DNA of 64,000 nt from an uncultured delta proteobacterium. Its GTDB lineage: Bacteria; Desulfobacterota; Desulfovibrionia; Desulfovibrionales; Desulfovibrionaceae. Both the position numbers and the translations under genes were made by a program. The notes beneath the pieces were generated by a model. It was not told the origin of the DNA. It searched no databases and saw only the letters and a list, made by a program, of their open reading frames with translations. This document shows, in pieces, positions 47,182-52,972 of the stretch (positions are counted from its first letter, which is position 1; the number at the start of each line of letters is the position of its first letter). The DNA lies in the NCBI GenBank assembly GCA_903843965.1, contig CAIMRY010000008.1:62001-126000 (forward strand), written 5' to 3'.

Positions 47182-48063
47182 ATGATCAAGCCCGAAGCCT
47201 TTTCCGTGGTCGTGGTGACCGGTTTGTCCGGCTCCGGCAAGAGCACGGCCTTGAACGTCTTCGAGGACCTCGGCTACTTCTGCGTGGACGGGCTGCCAGT
47301 GGCCTTGCTGCCCAAGCTGGTGTCCCTGTTCCTGGACAAGGACTCCCAGCACTGCGGGCTGGCCCTGGGCATGGACTTGCGCCAGCACGACTTCCTGGAC
47401 CAGTGGAACGACGCCCTGCGTGAGCTGTCGGCCAGGGGCGTGTTCGTGCGCGTGCTCTTTGTGGAGGCCAAGGACGCCTCGCTCATGCGCCGCTACGCCA
47501 CCACGCGGCGTCCGCATCCGCTGGAGTGCGACAGCCTCGGCCTGGAGCAGGCCCTGACCAGGGAGCGCTCCATGCTCGCGCCCCTGCGCAAGGACGCCGA
47601 GCTGGTCATCGACACCAGCGAATACTCCATCCACGACCTGCGGCGCATGATCCAGGAGCGCTTCGTCGCGACCCTGACCCCGGGCCAGGGCATGCGCGTT
47701 CATGTCTTGTCCTTTGGCTTCAAGTACGGCGTGCCGACCGAGGCTGACCTCGTCTTTGACCTGCGCTTTCTGCCCAATCCGTACTTTGTGCCGGAACTGC
47801 GGCCCCTGTCCGGCAAGGACCAGGCCGTGGCCGACTACGTGTACAAGGCCGAGCCTGGGCTGACCTTTCAGAACAAGCTGCAGGAGTTTCTGCTCTATCT
47901 TTTGCCGCTGTATGCCGCAGAGGGGCGCTACCGCATCACCCTGGCCGTGGGTTGCACCGGGGGCCGCCACCGTTCCGTGGCCATGGCCGAGCACCTGTTC
48001 GCCACCCTGCGCGACAGCGGCTATTCCGTAACACTTGAGCACCGGCACTTTGATCTCGGCTGA
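47182..48063 (+). CDS. rapZ: RNase adapter protein RapZ (YvcJ family)
   Basis: RapZ is a nucleotide-binding protein. Walker A is VVTGLSGSGKSTALNVFEDL at residue 9 on. The C-terminal domain has the conserved GCTGGRHRSVAMAEHL. In enterobacteria it guides RNase E to GlmZ and thereby controls glucosamine-6-phosphate synthase; whether that holds here is unknown. Other members hydrolyse GTP. At 293 aa it is normal. It stands between ptsN and the mannose-type PTS genes. Confidence 0.94.
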   Translation: MIKPEAFSVVVVTGLSGSGKSTALNVFEDLGYFCVDGLPVALLPKLVSLFLDKDSQHCGLALGMDLRQHDFLDQWNDALRELSARGVFVRVLFVEAKDASLMRRYATTRRPHPLECDSLGLEQALTRERSMLAPLRKDAELVIDTSEYSIHDLRRMIQERFVATLTPGQGMRVHVLSFGFKYGVPTEADLVFDLRFLPNPYFVPELRPLSGKDQAVADYVYKAEPGLTFQNKLQEFLLYLLPLYAAEGRYRITLAVGCTGGRHRSVAMAEHLFATLRDSGYSVTLEHRHFDLG

Positions 48064-48117
48064 CCGGGGAGTGCCAGAACCAGGCGCGGCGCAGTGCCGC
48101 GCACGCCAGGCGAGGCC

Positions 48118-48564
48118 ATGACGGAGAATTCGGAAACACAGACCCCGGTCCAGCAGGTGGGCGTGCTCGTGGTCACCCACGGCGAGTTCGGCTCCGCCCT
48201 GCTGGACGCCGCACAAATGATCCTGGGGCCCCTTGTCGGCGCTGCCGCCGTGAGCGTCCAGGTGTCCAAGGGCGTGGAGGAGATCCTGGTCGCCTTGAAG
48301 GCCGGGGTCTCCAGCCTGGACAGCGGCCTGGGCGTCATCGTGCTCACGGATCTTTTCGGCGGCACGCCCACGACCCTGAGCCTCTCGCTGTTGAAAAGCG
48401 GCAACCTGGAGGTTGTGTCCGGGGTGAATCTGCCCATGCTGATCAAGGTTCTGCAATGCCGCCAGATGAAGCTGCCGGAGCTTGCCTCCCAGGCGAGGTC
48501 GGCCGGGCAGGACGGCATCAAGGTGCCGGGCGAGATGTTGCGCAAGAAGCCCGCCGGGAGCTGA
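48118..48564 (+). CDS. Mannose-type PTS EIIA component
   Basis: The 148-residue protein is a mannose-family EIIA domain. The phosphorylated His is in VLVVTHGEFGSALLDAA (near residue 23) and the dimer segment is VIVLTDLFGGTPTTLS. I use ATG 48118, preceded by GCGAGG. It receives phosphate from HPr and gives it to the EIIB encoded four bases downstream. HPr and EI are not in the window. Confidence 0.92.
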   Translation: MTENSETQTPVQQVGVLVVTHGEFGSALLDAAQMILGPLVGAAAVSVQVSKGVEEILVALKAGVSSLDSGLGVIVLTDLFGGTPTTLSLSLLKSGNLEVVSGVNLPMLIKVLQCRQMKLPELASQARSAGQDGIKVPGEMLRKKPAGS

Positions 48565-48568
48565 CGCC

Positions 48569-49030
48569 ATGTTCTGGGTACGCGTCGACAACAGACTGAT
48601 CCACGGCCAGGTGGTGGAGGCGTGGGTGCCCCACATCGGGGCGCGCAGCATCATCGTGGGCAACGACGACCTGGCCAAGGACGAGCTGCAGCAGGAGATC
48701 ATGTCCCTGGCCATCCCCCGGGCCGTGGACAGCGCTTTTCTGTCCATCGACCAGCTGGTGCGCGACCCGCGCATGACCGGCGCCTCCCGCGAGGCCACGC
48801 TGCTTCTCTTCTCCTCCTGCCTGGACGTGCGCCGGGCCGTGGAAAAGGGCCTGCACCTGGATGTGCTGAACGTGGGCAACCTGCACTACGCCAATGGCAA
48901 GCGCCAGTTCTCGCCCAGCGTGTCCCTCGGCCCGGACGACGAGTCCTGCCTGCGCTACCTCATGGGCCAGGGCGTGGAGCTGGATTTTCGCTGCGTTCCA
49001 AACGACCCAGCGCATGTGAGGTTCGCATGA
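48569..49030 (+). CDS. Mannose-type PTS EIIB component
   Basis: The 153-residue protein is a mannose/sorbose-type EIIB. The phosphorylated His is in VDNRLIHGQVVEAWVPHIGA (near residue 12). The segment VLNVGNLHYANGKRQFSPSV is typical of the family. It overlaps the EIIC gene by four bases. With EIIC damaged and no EIID adjacent, its phosphate may be used for regulation instead of transport, which is inference. Confidence 0.92.
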   Translation: MFWVRVDNRLIHGQVVEAWVPHIGARSIIVGNDDLAKDELQQEIMSLAIPRAVDSAFLSIDQLVRDPRMTGASREATLLLFSSCLDVRRAVEKGLHLDVLNVGNLHYANGKRQFSPSVSLGPDDESCLRYLMGQGVELDFRCVPNDPAHVRFA

Positions 49031-49733
49031 TGGTTGACCTGCAGCTGACCGGACCGGCGTGGTTTGCCGCAGTCGGTTTTTTTTTGCCCTGTTCGCCCTG
49101 TGCAGGTTCTCCGTCAGCCTGGGGCTCATTGAGCGGCCCCTGGTCATCGGCCTGTGCTGGGGCCTGGTCTTCGGCAACCTGAATTCCTGCCTGTACATCG
49201 CCATCTTCTACGAGCTGCTCTGGCTCGACTTCATCCCGGTCGGCACCTTCATCCCGCCGCACATGACCGCAGCCGCCTTCACCGGGCTGGCCCTGGCCAC
49301 GTACTTCGGGCTGGACTCGCCTCCGCTGGTGTTCCTGGCCCTGGTCTTCGGCCTGCCCATGGCCTGGCTGGGGGCCAAGCTGGACCGCAACCTGCGCGAC
49401 CGCCTGAACCGCTCCTACAGCAGGGTTCTGCACTGGGTGCGCAGGCCTGCGGGCGACGACGTGCCGGGCAAGCTCATCCTGCGCACCCTTTTGGGCAAGC
49501 TGCTGGTGTCCTGGCTGTTCTTCCTGGTCGGCGCCGGGGTGCTGGCCGTGCTTCTGCAATTCACCTTGAACCAGTATTCCCTGTTCCTGCTCGACCTTGA
49601 TCTTTCCTGGAGCCAGTTTCTCATCGCCGCCAGCCTGGGCGGGCTGTTGTCCCTGCGACTGCGCAGCCTGTACCTTTCCGTGGGCGTGGGGGCCGTGGCG
49701 CTCGGATTTTTCCGGCTCGCTGGCATCTTCTAG
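49027..49733 (+). CDS. Mannose-type PTS EIIC component, frame interrupted at a T9 run
   Basis: From ATG 49027, overlapping the EIIB stop (ATGA), the product begins MMVDLQLTGPAWFAAVGFF. At the nine T residues 49077-49085 it runs into a different frame and stops at about 49183. The real continuation FALFALCRFSVSLGLIERPL lies one frame over and stays open to 49733 (IIC segments GLCWGLVFGNLNSCLYIAI, PVGTFIPPHMTAAAFTG). One extra T, or loss of two, restores a normal EIIC of about 235 aa with several membrane spans. The cause may be a sequencing error, a real mutation, or slippage by polymerase or ribosome. A downstream GTG (49059) could also start the second part. Confidence 0.8.
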
Positions 49734-50897: not shown

Positions 50898-51776
50898 CTA
50901 GATCAGGCCGCTCTGCTTCAACGCATCCTTGAGCTTGGCCAAGTTGGCGGGCTCCATGGGCACCAGGGGCAGCCGGAACTCCGGGCCCATCTTGCCCATG
51001 AGCGACAGCGCGGTCTTCACGGGGATGGGGTTGACCTCCAGGAACATGGCCCGGTTCACCGGGCTCAGCTCCATGTGCAGGGCCTGGGCCCGGGCCGTGT
51101 CGCGTTTGAAGAAGGCGTCGATCATGCCGGACATCTTGGCGGGCATGACGTTGGAGGTCACCGAGATGGTGCCGCAGCCGCCCACGGAGAGCAGGGGCAG
51201 CACCGTGAAGTCGTCGCCGGACAGGACGATGAAGTCCGGGCCCAGCAGCTCCACGACCTCGGAGCCCTGCCGGGCGTCGCCCGTGGCCTCCTTGCAGCCG
51301 ATGACCTCGGGAACCTCGCGCACGATGCGGGCGATGGTCTTGGGCAGCACGTTCTGGCCGGTGCGGCCGGGCACGTTGTACAGAATGATGGGCATGGGCG
51401 CCTTGGCGGCGATGGCCTTGAAGTGCGCCACCAGGCCGTCAGGGGAAGGCTTGTTGTAGTAGGGGGTGATGATGAGCGCGGCGTCGGCCCCGGCCTTTTT
51501 GGCCATGGCGGTCAGCTCGATGGCTTCCATGGTGTTGTTGGACCCGGCCCCGGCAATGACCGGAACCCGCCCCTTGACCTGATCGACACAGATGCGGATG
51601 ACCTGGCCCTGCTCCGCGTGGGAAAGGGTGGCGGCCTCGCCGGTGGTGCCGCAGGGCACGACACCGTTGATGCCCTGTTCGATCTGCCATTCGATGAAGG
51701 CTCTGTAAGCCTCCTCGTCCACGGCGCCGTTCTTGAACGGCGTCACCAGTGCGGTAAACGCGCCGCGCAGCTGCAT
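50898..51776 (-). CDS. dapA: 4-hydroxy-tetrahydrodipicolinate synthase
   Basis: DapA condenses pyruvate with aspartate semialdehyde, the first committed step to lysine and diaminopimelate. It has the substrate loop VVPCGTTGEAATL, the tyrosine segment IILYNVPGRTGQN and the Schiff-base Lys in VIGCKEATGDARQG (near residue 161). At 292 aa it is the usual length. GAGGAGGA (complement of 51781-51788) precedes the ATG. It lies downstream of the selenoprotein gene with a hairpin between them. Confidence 0.96.
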   Translation of the reverse strand: MQLRGAFTALVTPFKNGAVDEEAYRAFIEWQIEQGINGVVPCGTTGEAATLSHAEQGQVIRICVDQVKGRVPVIAGAGSNNTMEAIELTAMAKKAGADAALIITPYYNKPSPDGLVAHFKAIAAKAPMPIILYNVPGRTGQNVLPKTIARIVREVPEVIGCKEATGDARQGSEVVELLGPDFIVLSGDDFTVLPLLSVGGCGTISVTSNVMPAKMSGMIDAFFKRDTARAQALHMELSPVNRAMFLEVNPIPVKTALSLMGKMGPEFRLPLVPMEPANLAKLKDALKQSGLI

Positions 51777-51810: not shown

Positions 51811-52695
51811 CTAGTCGGTGCCCATGCTCTGCATGAGCGAGAGCATGTGCGGATCTTCTTGATATTGATCCGTCAACCCGAAAAGGGTCATACGAATATT
51901 TTGCTCTTCCGTCCATTTGAAATTGGCGCTCGTGTGATCCGGCCAAGCCAGAATGTCGATGCGGCTCATGGATTTGCCCTGGGCAAAGGCGCGAATCCAC
52001 AATGTTTTCCCCTTGCCCGCAATGTTGCCCACAAGACCGATGCCGATGCCGGAACCCAGCAAAATGTCCGGCAGGGGGCCGGGGGCGCTGAGCAGCTCCT
52101 GCTCCAGATTGTAGCCCCAGGGGCTCATGGCCACCACCAGGTGCGACTTGGCGCGCAGGGTGCGCACCGCCTCCTCGATCTGGCGCAGCAGCTCCGGCGG
52201 CGGGCTGGAGGTGGCGTCCGGCAGGGGCGGCAGCAGCAGCACGCCTATCCTGTGCGCGGGGTCCGGTCCGAGCAGGTGCAGCTCCAGGCGGTCCGAACCA
52301 ACCCAGTTCTTGTGCGGGTGCAGGCCGACCTTGGCCATGGCCGCGCGTTCATAGGGCGAGACAAAGACCAGGTCGTTGCGCAGGAGCTCATAGGCCTTGG
52401 CCATGAAATCCAGGCGCTTGCGCGTGGGCGGTTTTGGGGCCTGATATTGGGCAAAGTCATAGGCCCCGGTCAGTATGAGCACCGGAGCCTCCCTGGGCGC
52501 GCCCTGGCGAAGCGCATTCTGAAACGTGGCCCGCCGGGCCAGTCCGCCTACGGTTTTCCCGCCTCAAGTGGGGCAGGGACGAACCTCGGCTTCCGTGTTG
52601 CCGCTGAAGAGCAGGGTCAGCCTGGGTGAACCTGCGTAGACATTCGATGCGAAGGCCAGGACCGCAAAAAGGAAAAGCGTGATGAAGCGCAGCAT
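51811..52695 (-). CDS. Secreted UshA-like protein with an in-frame UGA, probable selenoprotein
   Basis: From ATG 52695 the frame gives a signal peptide (about 1-21, ending VYA) and then LLFSGNTEAEVRPCPT, followed by UGA at codon 44. It continues in the same frame as GGKTVGGLARRATFQNAL through to 51811, 294 codons in all. The sequence on both sides of the UGA belongs to one protein: N-terminal parts of UshA/5'-nucleotidase-like proteins commonly have a CPxC or CPSC pair followed by GG and GGLARR, so the UGA stands where Cys is expected. A stable hairpin lies 22 bases after the UGA. I read it as selenocysteine-44 paired with Cys41. The catalytic metal motifs of true 5'-nucleotidases are not evident. 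Function unknown, possibly periplasmic redox. It starts one base after the HU stop codon. Confidence 0.8.
52527..52566 (-). promoter_or_regulatory. Candidate bacterial SECIS element
   Basis: The UGA is at 52566-52564 on the minus strand. After 22 bases comes a perfect 6-bp stem TGGCCC / GGGCCA with loop GGC (52541-52527). Bacterial SECIS hairpins that bind SelB lie directly downstream of the UGA with the apical loop, containing G, about 16-37 bases away; here it is about 29. Position and loop G fit. Pairing in RNA was judged by eye. Confidence 0.6.
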
Positions 52696-52696
52696 A

Positions 52697-52972
52697 TTAG
52701 TCGTTGATGAATTCCTTGAGTTCCTTGCCCGGACGGAAGAAGGGCAGACGTTTGGGCTGCACCTGGACCACGGTGCCGGTCTTGGGGTTGCGGCCGGTGT
52801 AGCCGTTGTAGTCCTTGACCTTGAAGCTGCCGAAACCGCGCACTTCGACCCGGTCGCCCGCGACCAGGGCGTCCTTGATGGAGTCGAAGAATGCTCCAAC
52901 GATCTTGGTGGCATCGTCGATGTGCAGCTTTTTCTCTTCGGCCAGCGCCTTGATGAGCTCGCTCTTGTTCAT
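52697..52972 (-). CDS. HU family DNA-binding protein
   Basis: This is a 91-residue histone-like protein that bends and compacts DNA as a dimer. It has the N-terminal MNKSELIKALAEEKKLHID helix pair, the signature GFGSFKVKDYNGYTGRNPKT and the DNA-gripping arm with QVQPKRLPFFRPGKELKE. It has its own promoter and a hairpin in the leader. The stop is one base before the selenoprotein start, so the two should be co-transcribed. Confidence 0.95.
   Translation of the reverse strand: MNKSELIKALAEEKKLHIDDATKIVGAFFDSIKDALVAGDRVEVRGFGSFKVKDYNGYTGRNPKTGTVVQVQPKRLPFFRPGKELKEFIND

Follow-up and report, generated by a model that had tools for sequence, protein, structure and literature searches.

The selenoprotein gene, its neighbours and its family

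The window analysed here, a stretch of 64,000 nucleotides from a sulfate-reducing bacterium, carries on its minus strand a frame that runs from an ATG to a TAG over 294 codons and whose sole in-frame stop is the TGA at codon 44 (Table 1). This codon stands in the context R-P-C-P-T-TGA-G-G-K-T-V-G-G-L-A-R-R, and 250 sense codons follow it. The original prediction had described a frame opening behind an HU gene, broken only by a UGA in CPT-U-GG and continuing for 250 codons, and we found both the coordinates and the description to be correct. It had also anticipated that conventional gene calling would report either two fragments or the downstream part alone; the list of open reading frames, which was made without read-through, contains in this frame only a 223-aa piece that starts at a GTG (52482). 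The TAA stop codon of the HU gene lies 1 base ahead of the selenoprotein ATG, and the dapA-like gene starts 34 bases past the selenoprotein stop. By eye, the N-terminus (MLRFITLFLFAVLAFASNVYA-G) resembles a Sec signal peptide and probably is one. Two relatives (L098 and L099) keep the TGA at codon 44, and in both comparisons changes at the third codon position outnumbered those of any other class on either side of the UGA.

Table 1. Features at the selenoprotein locus (window positions).
Feature	Position	Strand	Remark
CDS, UshA-like selenoprotein family 2 member, 294 aa, Sec at residue 44	51811..52695	-	NF049981, 292.2 bits
UGA codon 44, read as selenocysteine	52564..52566	-	column Cys/Sec in 81/81 family loci read
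Cys41 codon, partner of Sec44 (CPTU)	52573..52575	-	invariant in 20/20 aligned family members
Probable signal peptide, residues 1-22	52630..52695	-	judged by eye
Bacterial SECIS hairpin	52527..52541	-	6-bp stem, 52541-52536 with 52532-52527; loop GGC, 52535-52533
HU-type DNA-binding protein gene, directly upstream	52697..52972	-	PF00216; HU homologue in 73/85 family loci
dapA-like gene, directly downstream	50898..51776	-	PF00701; homologue in 58/85 family loci

The joined translation, searched with C in place of U, strongly matched the NCBIfam model NF049981, "UshA-like (seleno)protein family 2", scoring well above the cut-off of 140 bits (292.2 bits, E 3.5e-87). Since this match covers the whole profile (1-262 of 262) and residues 26-289 of the protein, thereby spanning both sides of the UGA, the read-through frame is not due to chance, and the gene is confirmed to encode one protein and not two fragments. 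The CxxU/CxxC motif of the family is present as CPTU. The model of the first UshA-like family, NF041198, whose motif is CxU, reached only 41.2 bits (8.2e-11), below its cut-off of 275. The earlier assignment to UshA-like proteins thus stood, but the family is not the previously reported CxU one; it is family 2 (CxxU), from which the window protein differs in nothing essential. The gene is a genuine selenoprotein gene of an already catalogued family, and the family itself is not new. A scan of named genome contigs returned four homologous loci, two in Humidesulfovibrio (76% and 55% identity) and two others at about 82%. No Pfam family matched the window protein; among the 20 family proteins of alignment A1 there were only two Pfam matches, each in one member, and no haem domain.

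In the literature searched as full text, NF049981 is named only in a 2026 review (PMC13188914), a table of which lists it with the motif CxxU, the note GA ("GenBank annotated"). Passages of PMC2398784 and PMC9312934 describe the earlier CxU family, and a 2006 table of the selenoproteins of two Desulfovibrio species (PMC1794560) has no UshA-like one among its entries. The same full-text searches gave nothing that joins Humidesulfovibrio with a selenoprotein and nothing that combines selenoprotein, UshA, cytochrome and Desulfovibrio. The available parts of PMC13188914, PMC9312934 and PMC2398784 contain no SECIS or metal-site analysis of family 2.

Four proteins of the window were tested as neighbours across 85 family loci, and among these four no redox partner or substrate of the UshA-like selenoprotein was found. 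The HU and dapA neighbours say nothing about the function of the selenoprotein.

Evidence for selenocysteine at codon 44

A class-wide scan found NF049981 matches in 186 of 348 genomes, 180 of them over the cut-off, as against a single match below the cut-off in 14 control genomes. Of the matching genomes, 170 have an in-frame TGA (a hand count that includes the fragments or weak matches in G008, G051, G054, G206 and G281), 15 have TGA-free copies only, and one (G142, 19 bits) is unclear. At the loci that were read by residue, the UGA column holds Sec or Cys in 81/81, the other genomes contributing a stop count only, and none of the 81 lacks the partner Cys; three of these loci failed the reading pattern of Cys followed by Sec/Cys and were read directly, as CPVC. 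The Cys homologues comprise 15 distinct sequences. Sec or Cys also occupies the column at 54/54 more distant loci (14 + 40, chosen from the sub-cut-off list), and the expectation that homologues would carry one or the other at this position was thereby borne out.

SelB was detected by PF09107 in 160 of the 170 TGA genomes. TIGR00475 adds two over its cut-off (G181, G011), and sub-cut-off fragments suggest SelB in another two (G228, G329), which brings the count to 164. The TGA genomes without SelB evidence (G215, G084, G235, G302, G323 and G017) are all drafts of about 180-590 contigs. Cys-only genomes mostly lacked SelB, which was present in 4 of the 15 (G065, G066, G067 and G183; a very weak match in G186 was not counted). 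The difference between TGA and Cys-only genomes gave Fisher values of 9e-11 (for 164/170) and 2e-9 (for 160/170), which are too small because the tests treat related sequences as independent. All 13 matching genomes of genus g39 hold a TGA-free copy as well as a TGA copy, and in the two that were read (G321 and G328; L045 and L044) the TGA-free copy has Cys and the two copies adjoin in tandem.

The genome that contains the window encodes SelA (567.9 bits, contig G000:C31), the C-terminal domain of SelB about 3.5 kb further along the same contig (70.3 bits), and SelD (319.1 bits), whose gene carries an in-frame TGA. A tRNA-Sec scored 82.9 bits against a gathering score of 47, with seven other matches below the cut-off. 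Because 5 of 14 control genomes also gave matches over the cut-off of this tRNA-Sec family search, the locus was checked with ARAGORN, which called it tRNA-SeC with anticodon TCA. The products of selA, selB, selC and selD, which had been named as a check on the reading of the UGA, are therefore all present, each over its cut-off. The SelD locus itself (L041, G000:C9:74481-75407) is a probable selenoprotein gene with its in-frame TGA at AAGUAAK.

We then considered the RNA downstream of the UGA. The rule given for bacterial SECIS elements in PMC13188914 specifies a loop of 3-9 nt with G in its first two positions, a stem of 4-16 bp, a distance of 16-37 nt from the UGA and an energy at or below -7.5 kcal/mol. 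The window hairpin agrees with the constraints set out there, having a 3-nt loop, 6 bp, a distance of 28 nt and, as an isolated hairpin, -10.2 kcal/mol. Folded as a stretch of 54 or 58 bases, the window RNA has another, larger pairing as its minimum and is not unusually stable (z -0.76). Across the family, Sec and Cys genes could not be told apart by the mean folding energy of the first 54 nt downstream of the UGA relative to a synonymous-codon null (z -0.55 versus -1.21), and folding stability alone was dropped as evidence for a SECIS element. Since total folding energy fails to discriminate, the hairpin was instead tested pair by pair.

Folding 72 distinct Sec sequences together gave a single hairpin as the consensus (alifold -9.09); when codons were permuted within columns, 0 of 200 sets reached this value (z -2.7). 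Counted from the U of the UGA, nucleotides 26-31 pair with 35-40 and enclose a loop at 32-34, which reads GGC in 55 Sec sequences, GTC in 10 and GGA in 7 (G[G/U]N overall). Among 72 distinct Sec sequences taken as 54-nt windows, not quite the same set as for the consensus fold, 70 form all six pairs, as against none of 15 Cys sequences (Fisher 5e-15, again too small on account of kinship). Pair 27-39 shows compensatory change, being G-C in 50 sequences, G-U in 13, U-G in 4, U-A in 3 and unpaired in 2. Codon choice follows the same division: Sec genes do not use CGC at either Arg codon of the hairpin (0/144), although 322 of their 828 other Arg codons are CGC, whereas Cys genes have CGC at these two codons in 16 of 30 cases, like the rest of the gene (92/157). 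Genus g21 has the complete hairpin in 4/4 Sec genes and in 0/8 Cys genes, and such a contrast inside one genus is a better control than the Fisher tests. Both g39 tandem pairs that were read have a complete hairpin in the Sec copy and an incomplete one in the Cys copy. The family thus offers a clean and testable Sec/Cys exchange in which the SECIS element is present or absent inside single genera. The same six-pair hairpin does not extend throughout the more distant Sec proteins: 3 of 27 in the intermediate group described below and 1 of 9 in the CxU family form it, and these groups may use other SECIS shapes. A search of positions 52400-52800 against Rfam returned only a sub-threshold snoRNA match, which we judged to be chance.

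The proposal that UGA 44 encodes selenocysteine is supported by the Cys/Sec column, by the Sec machinery of the genome and by the recurrence of the same TGA triplet at this site in other genomes. On this comparative evidence, insertion of selenocysteine at UGA 44 appears nearly certain.

Relationship to UshA and to other selenoprotein groups

The family 2 profile aligned with a profile of intermediate CxxU/CxxC relatives over 280 columns (E 4.7e-38), and this intermediate profile in turn aligned with Escherichia coli UshA over 250 columns (E 2.3e-24). Direct comparison by hhalign of the family 2 alignment A1 (20 proteins) with one UshA was weak (probability 4%), and homology to UshA was therefore taken via the intermediate group. 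The likeness to the UshA/5'-nucleotidase domain, as found in E. coli UshA and in the UshA-type enzyme P0003 of the same genome, consists of a collinear profile alignment, which is best by this route. AlphaFold, applied to the window protein together with four relatives, yielded a model of no use (mean pLDDT 43.9, pTM 0.43), so we infer the fold from the sequence profiles.

We examined the UshA residues D41, H43, D84, N116, H217, H252 and Q254, which we take to be its metal and catalytic residues. Family 2 has lost most of this binuclear metal site. The equivalents of N116, H117, H217, H252 and Q254 are kept in 0/20 proteins, D41 is kept in 4/20, H43 in 3/20 and D84 in 2/20, and the positions of H252 and Q254 are both Gly in all 20. 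The residues that are invariant in these aligned proteins are instead P40, C41, C/U44, G50, G51, R54, R55, P156, E198, G214, G216, G218, W233 and G240. Neither the window protein nor any of the 20 family proteins matched Pfam Metallophos (PF00149) at E up to 0.1. P0003, by contrast, is a normal UshA-type enzyme with all ligands present. Compared with UshA, the window protein has lost most metal ligands and gained a CxxU site, and at 294 aa it is too short for the C-terminal 5'-nucleotidase domain. As judged from the profiles, it is a distant form of the UshA/5'-nucleotidase phosphoesterase domain in which little of the metal site is left. The fold therefore resembles a relic of a phosphoesterase, free of metal and bearing a Cys-x-x-Sec motif, and metallophosphoesterase activity has very probably been lost.

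A scan of 395 genomes of the phylum gave NF049981 matches in 153, of which six were over the cut-off, all in the window's own family. Among the 54 selected distant loci, the partner Cys is missing in six (Sec at the column in L139, L141, L159, L169 and L170, Cys in L163); since Sec or Cys is kept there without a partner, a Cys-Sec pair is not needed everywhere. Thirteen of the 54, comprising 10 with Sec and 3 with Cys at the column and including the six without partner Cys, failed the pattern of Cys followed by Sec/Cys and were excluded from alignments A3 and A4, the ligand counts and the tree. A3 (28 rows) and A4 (12 rows) are accordingly a selected set, with one near copy, L122, left out of A4 (12/13).

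The intermediate group, A3, consists of 28 CxxU/CxxC relatives from other Desulfobacterota (L110-L116, L118-L120 and most of L136-L175), 27 with Sec and one with Cys. At E-value limits near the respective cut-offs, 1e-40 for NF049981 and 1e-80 for NF041198, not one of the 28 gave a match, the best value being 5.6e-77 to NF041198. As all 28 pass neither cut-off, the group falls between the two curated models and is perhaps a selenoprotein group without a model of its own; because its members were chosen from the sub-cut-off list, the 28 of 28 is not a frequency. It retains remnants of the metal site, with equivalents of D84 in 19/28, of H217 in 11/28 and of H252 in 11/28. In one intermediate protein (L137:838-1944) a D-T-H metal motif stands shortly before CPTU, and other ligands are lost. 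Six intermediate relatives match the profile of the SoxB thiosulfohydrolase (TIGR04486) at 2.5e-22 to 1.8e-11, far below its 550-bit cut-off; the window protein gave no match to it at E up to 1.

NF041198 proteins share with the window protein a homologous N-terminal part in which Sec stands beside the same Cys and is followed by GGLAR. They differ in that the Cys-Sec spacing is one residue shorter ('PCGU'), the protein is longer and the C-terminus is a multihaem cytochrome. This C-terminus is cytochrome c554-like, with PF13435 matches in L121 and L117 and C-x-x-C-H columns in A4. In the tree, the 20 family 2 rows lie on one side of a branch with support of 100/100, and there is no clean division between the intermediate group and the CxU group.

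Possible redox function and alternatives

We propose, with a probability of about 0.77, that the gene encodes an exported selenoprotein with Sec at residue 44, in which a metal-free UshA-like domain presents a CPTU redox site in the periplasm. SelB and Sec-tRNA would read UGA 44 as selenocysteine, and the Sec pathway would export the protein to the periplasm. There the CPTU pair would cycle between the selenol/thiol and selenenylsulfide states and would form the active site of a reductase or electron-transfer protein. We infer that the most likely function is that of a periplasmic selenol/thiol redox protein. Some redox role is reasonably probable, and the odds that Cys41 and Sec44 act as the working pair are about even; the odds of a redox role and the overall confidence were both lowered slightly because distant relatives have Sec or Cys without the partner Cys. 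Reducing power might come from periplasmic carriers such as c-type cytochromes, which are suggested because the sister family NF041198 (CxU) carries a multihaem domain in the same chain, although a cytochrome partner is on balance unlikely.

The strongest alternative is that the Cys/Sec site binds a metal or cofactor, perhaps across a dimer, or that Sec acts as a lone nucleophile, with no Cys-Sec redox pair in either case. Selenocysteine is a metal ligand in some enzymes, such as formate dehydrogenase and NiFeSe hydrogenase. The CPxCG motif resembles a zinc-knuckle or rubredoxin half-site, most Cys versions read CPxC-G with one pair per chain, and the distant relatives that keep Sec/Cys without the partner would suit either a metal site or a lone Sec. 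A zinc knuckle, however, normally needs four ligands and A1 contains no further invariant Cys or His; every family 2 locus read has the partner Cys, and the related CxU proteins differ in spacing. We regard this alternative as a minority possibility, with odds of about one in four. Far less probable is that the protein has remained a phosphoesterase or nucleotidase that depends on metal, with Sec close to its active site: its homology to UshA and other 5'-nucleotidases and the name of the family would favour this, but the loss of most metal ligands across the 20 family proteins, the lack of Metallophos matches among them and the presence of a complete UshA-type enzyme in the same genome argue against it. 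The least likely alternative, that UGA 44 is a true stop arising from a pseudogene, a sequencing error or two separate products, agrees with the 223-aa downstream frame in the mechanical list but is scarcely credible, as an in-match TGA recurs in 170 genomes (at this column in the loci read), the conserved GGLARR sits between the UGA and the downstream start, and both the Sec machinery and the SECIS hairpin are present.

The periplasmic redox reading can be extended, speculatively and at odds of about one in three, to the suggestion that anaerobic Desulfobacterota have turned a 5'-nucleotidase-type fold into a metal-free selenium module, whose selenol, whether or not a partner Cys is present, would exchange electrons with periplasmic cytochromes and act on a substrate containing sulfur or selenium. 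The path would lead from proteins with metal-site remnants (the CxU multihaem proteins and the unnamed CxxU group) to family 2, in which the histidines and the asparagine of the metal site would have been replaced and GxGxG and CPxU fixed. If the redox reading is true, a phosphoesterase fold has been reused for selenium chemistry.

Two further observations concern other parts of the window. The prfB gene for release factor 2 (55876-54757, minus strand) contains an in-frame TGA at codon 26 (55801-55799), a second recoded UGA in the window; it lies in CTTTGAC, which we take to be the classical programmed +1 frameshift site. At 47182-49733, RapZ adjoins mannose-type PTS EIIA and EIIC-like genes, as identified by Pfam.
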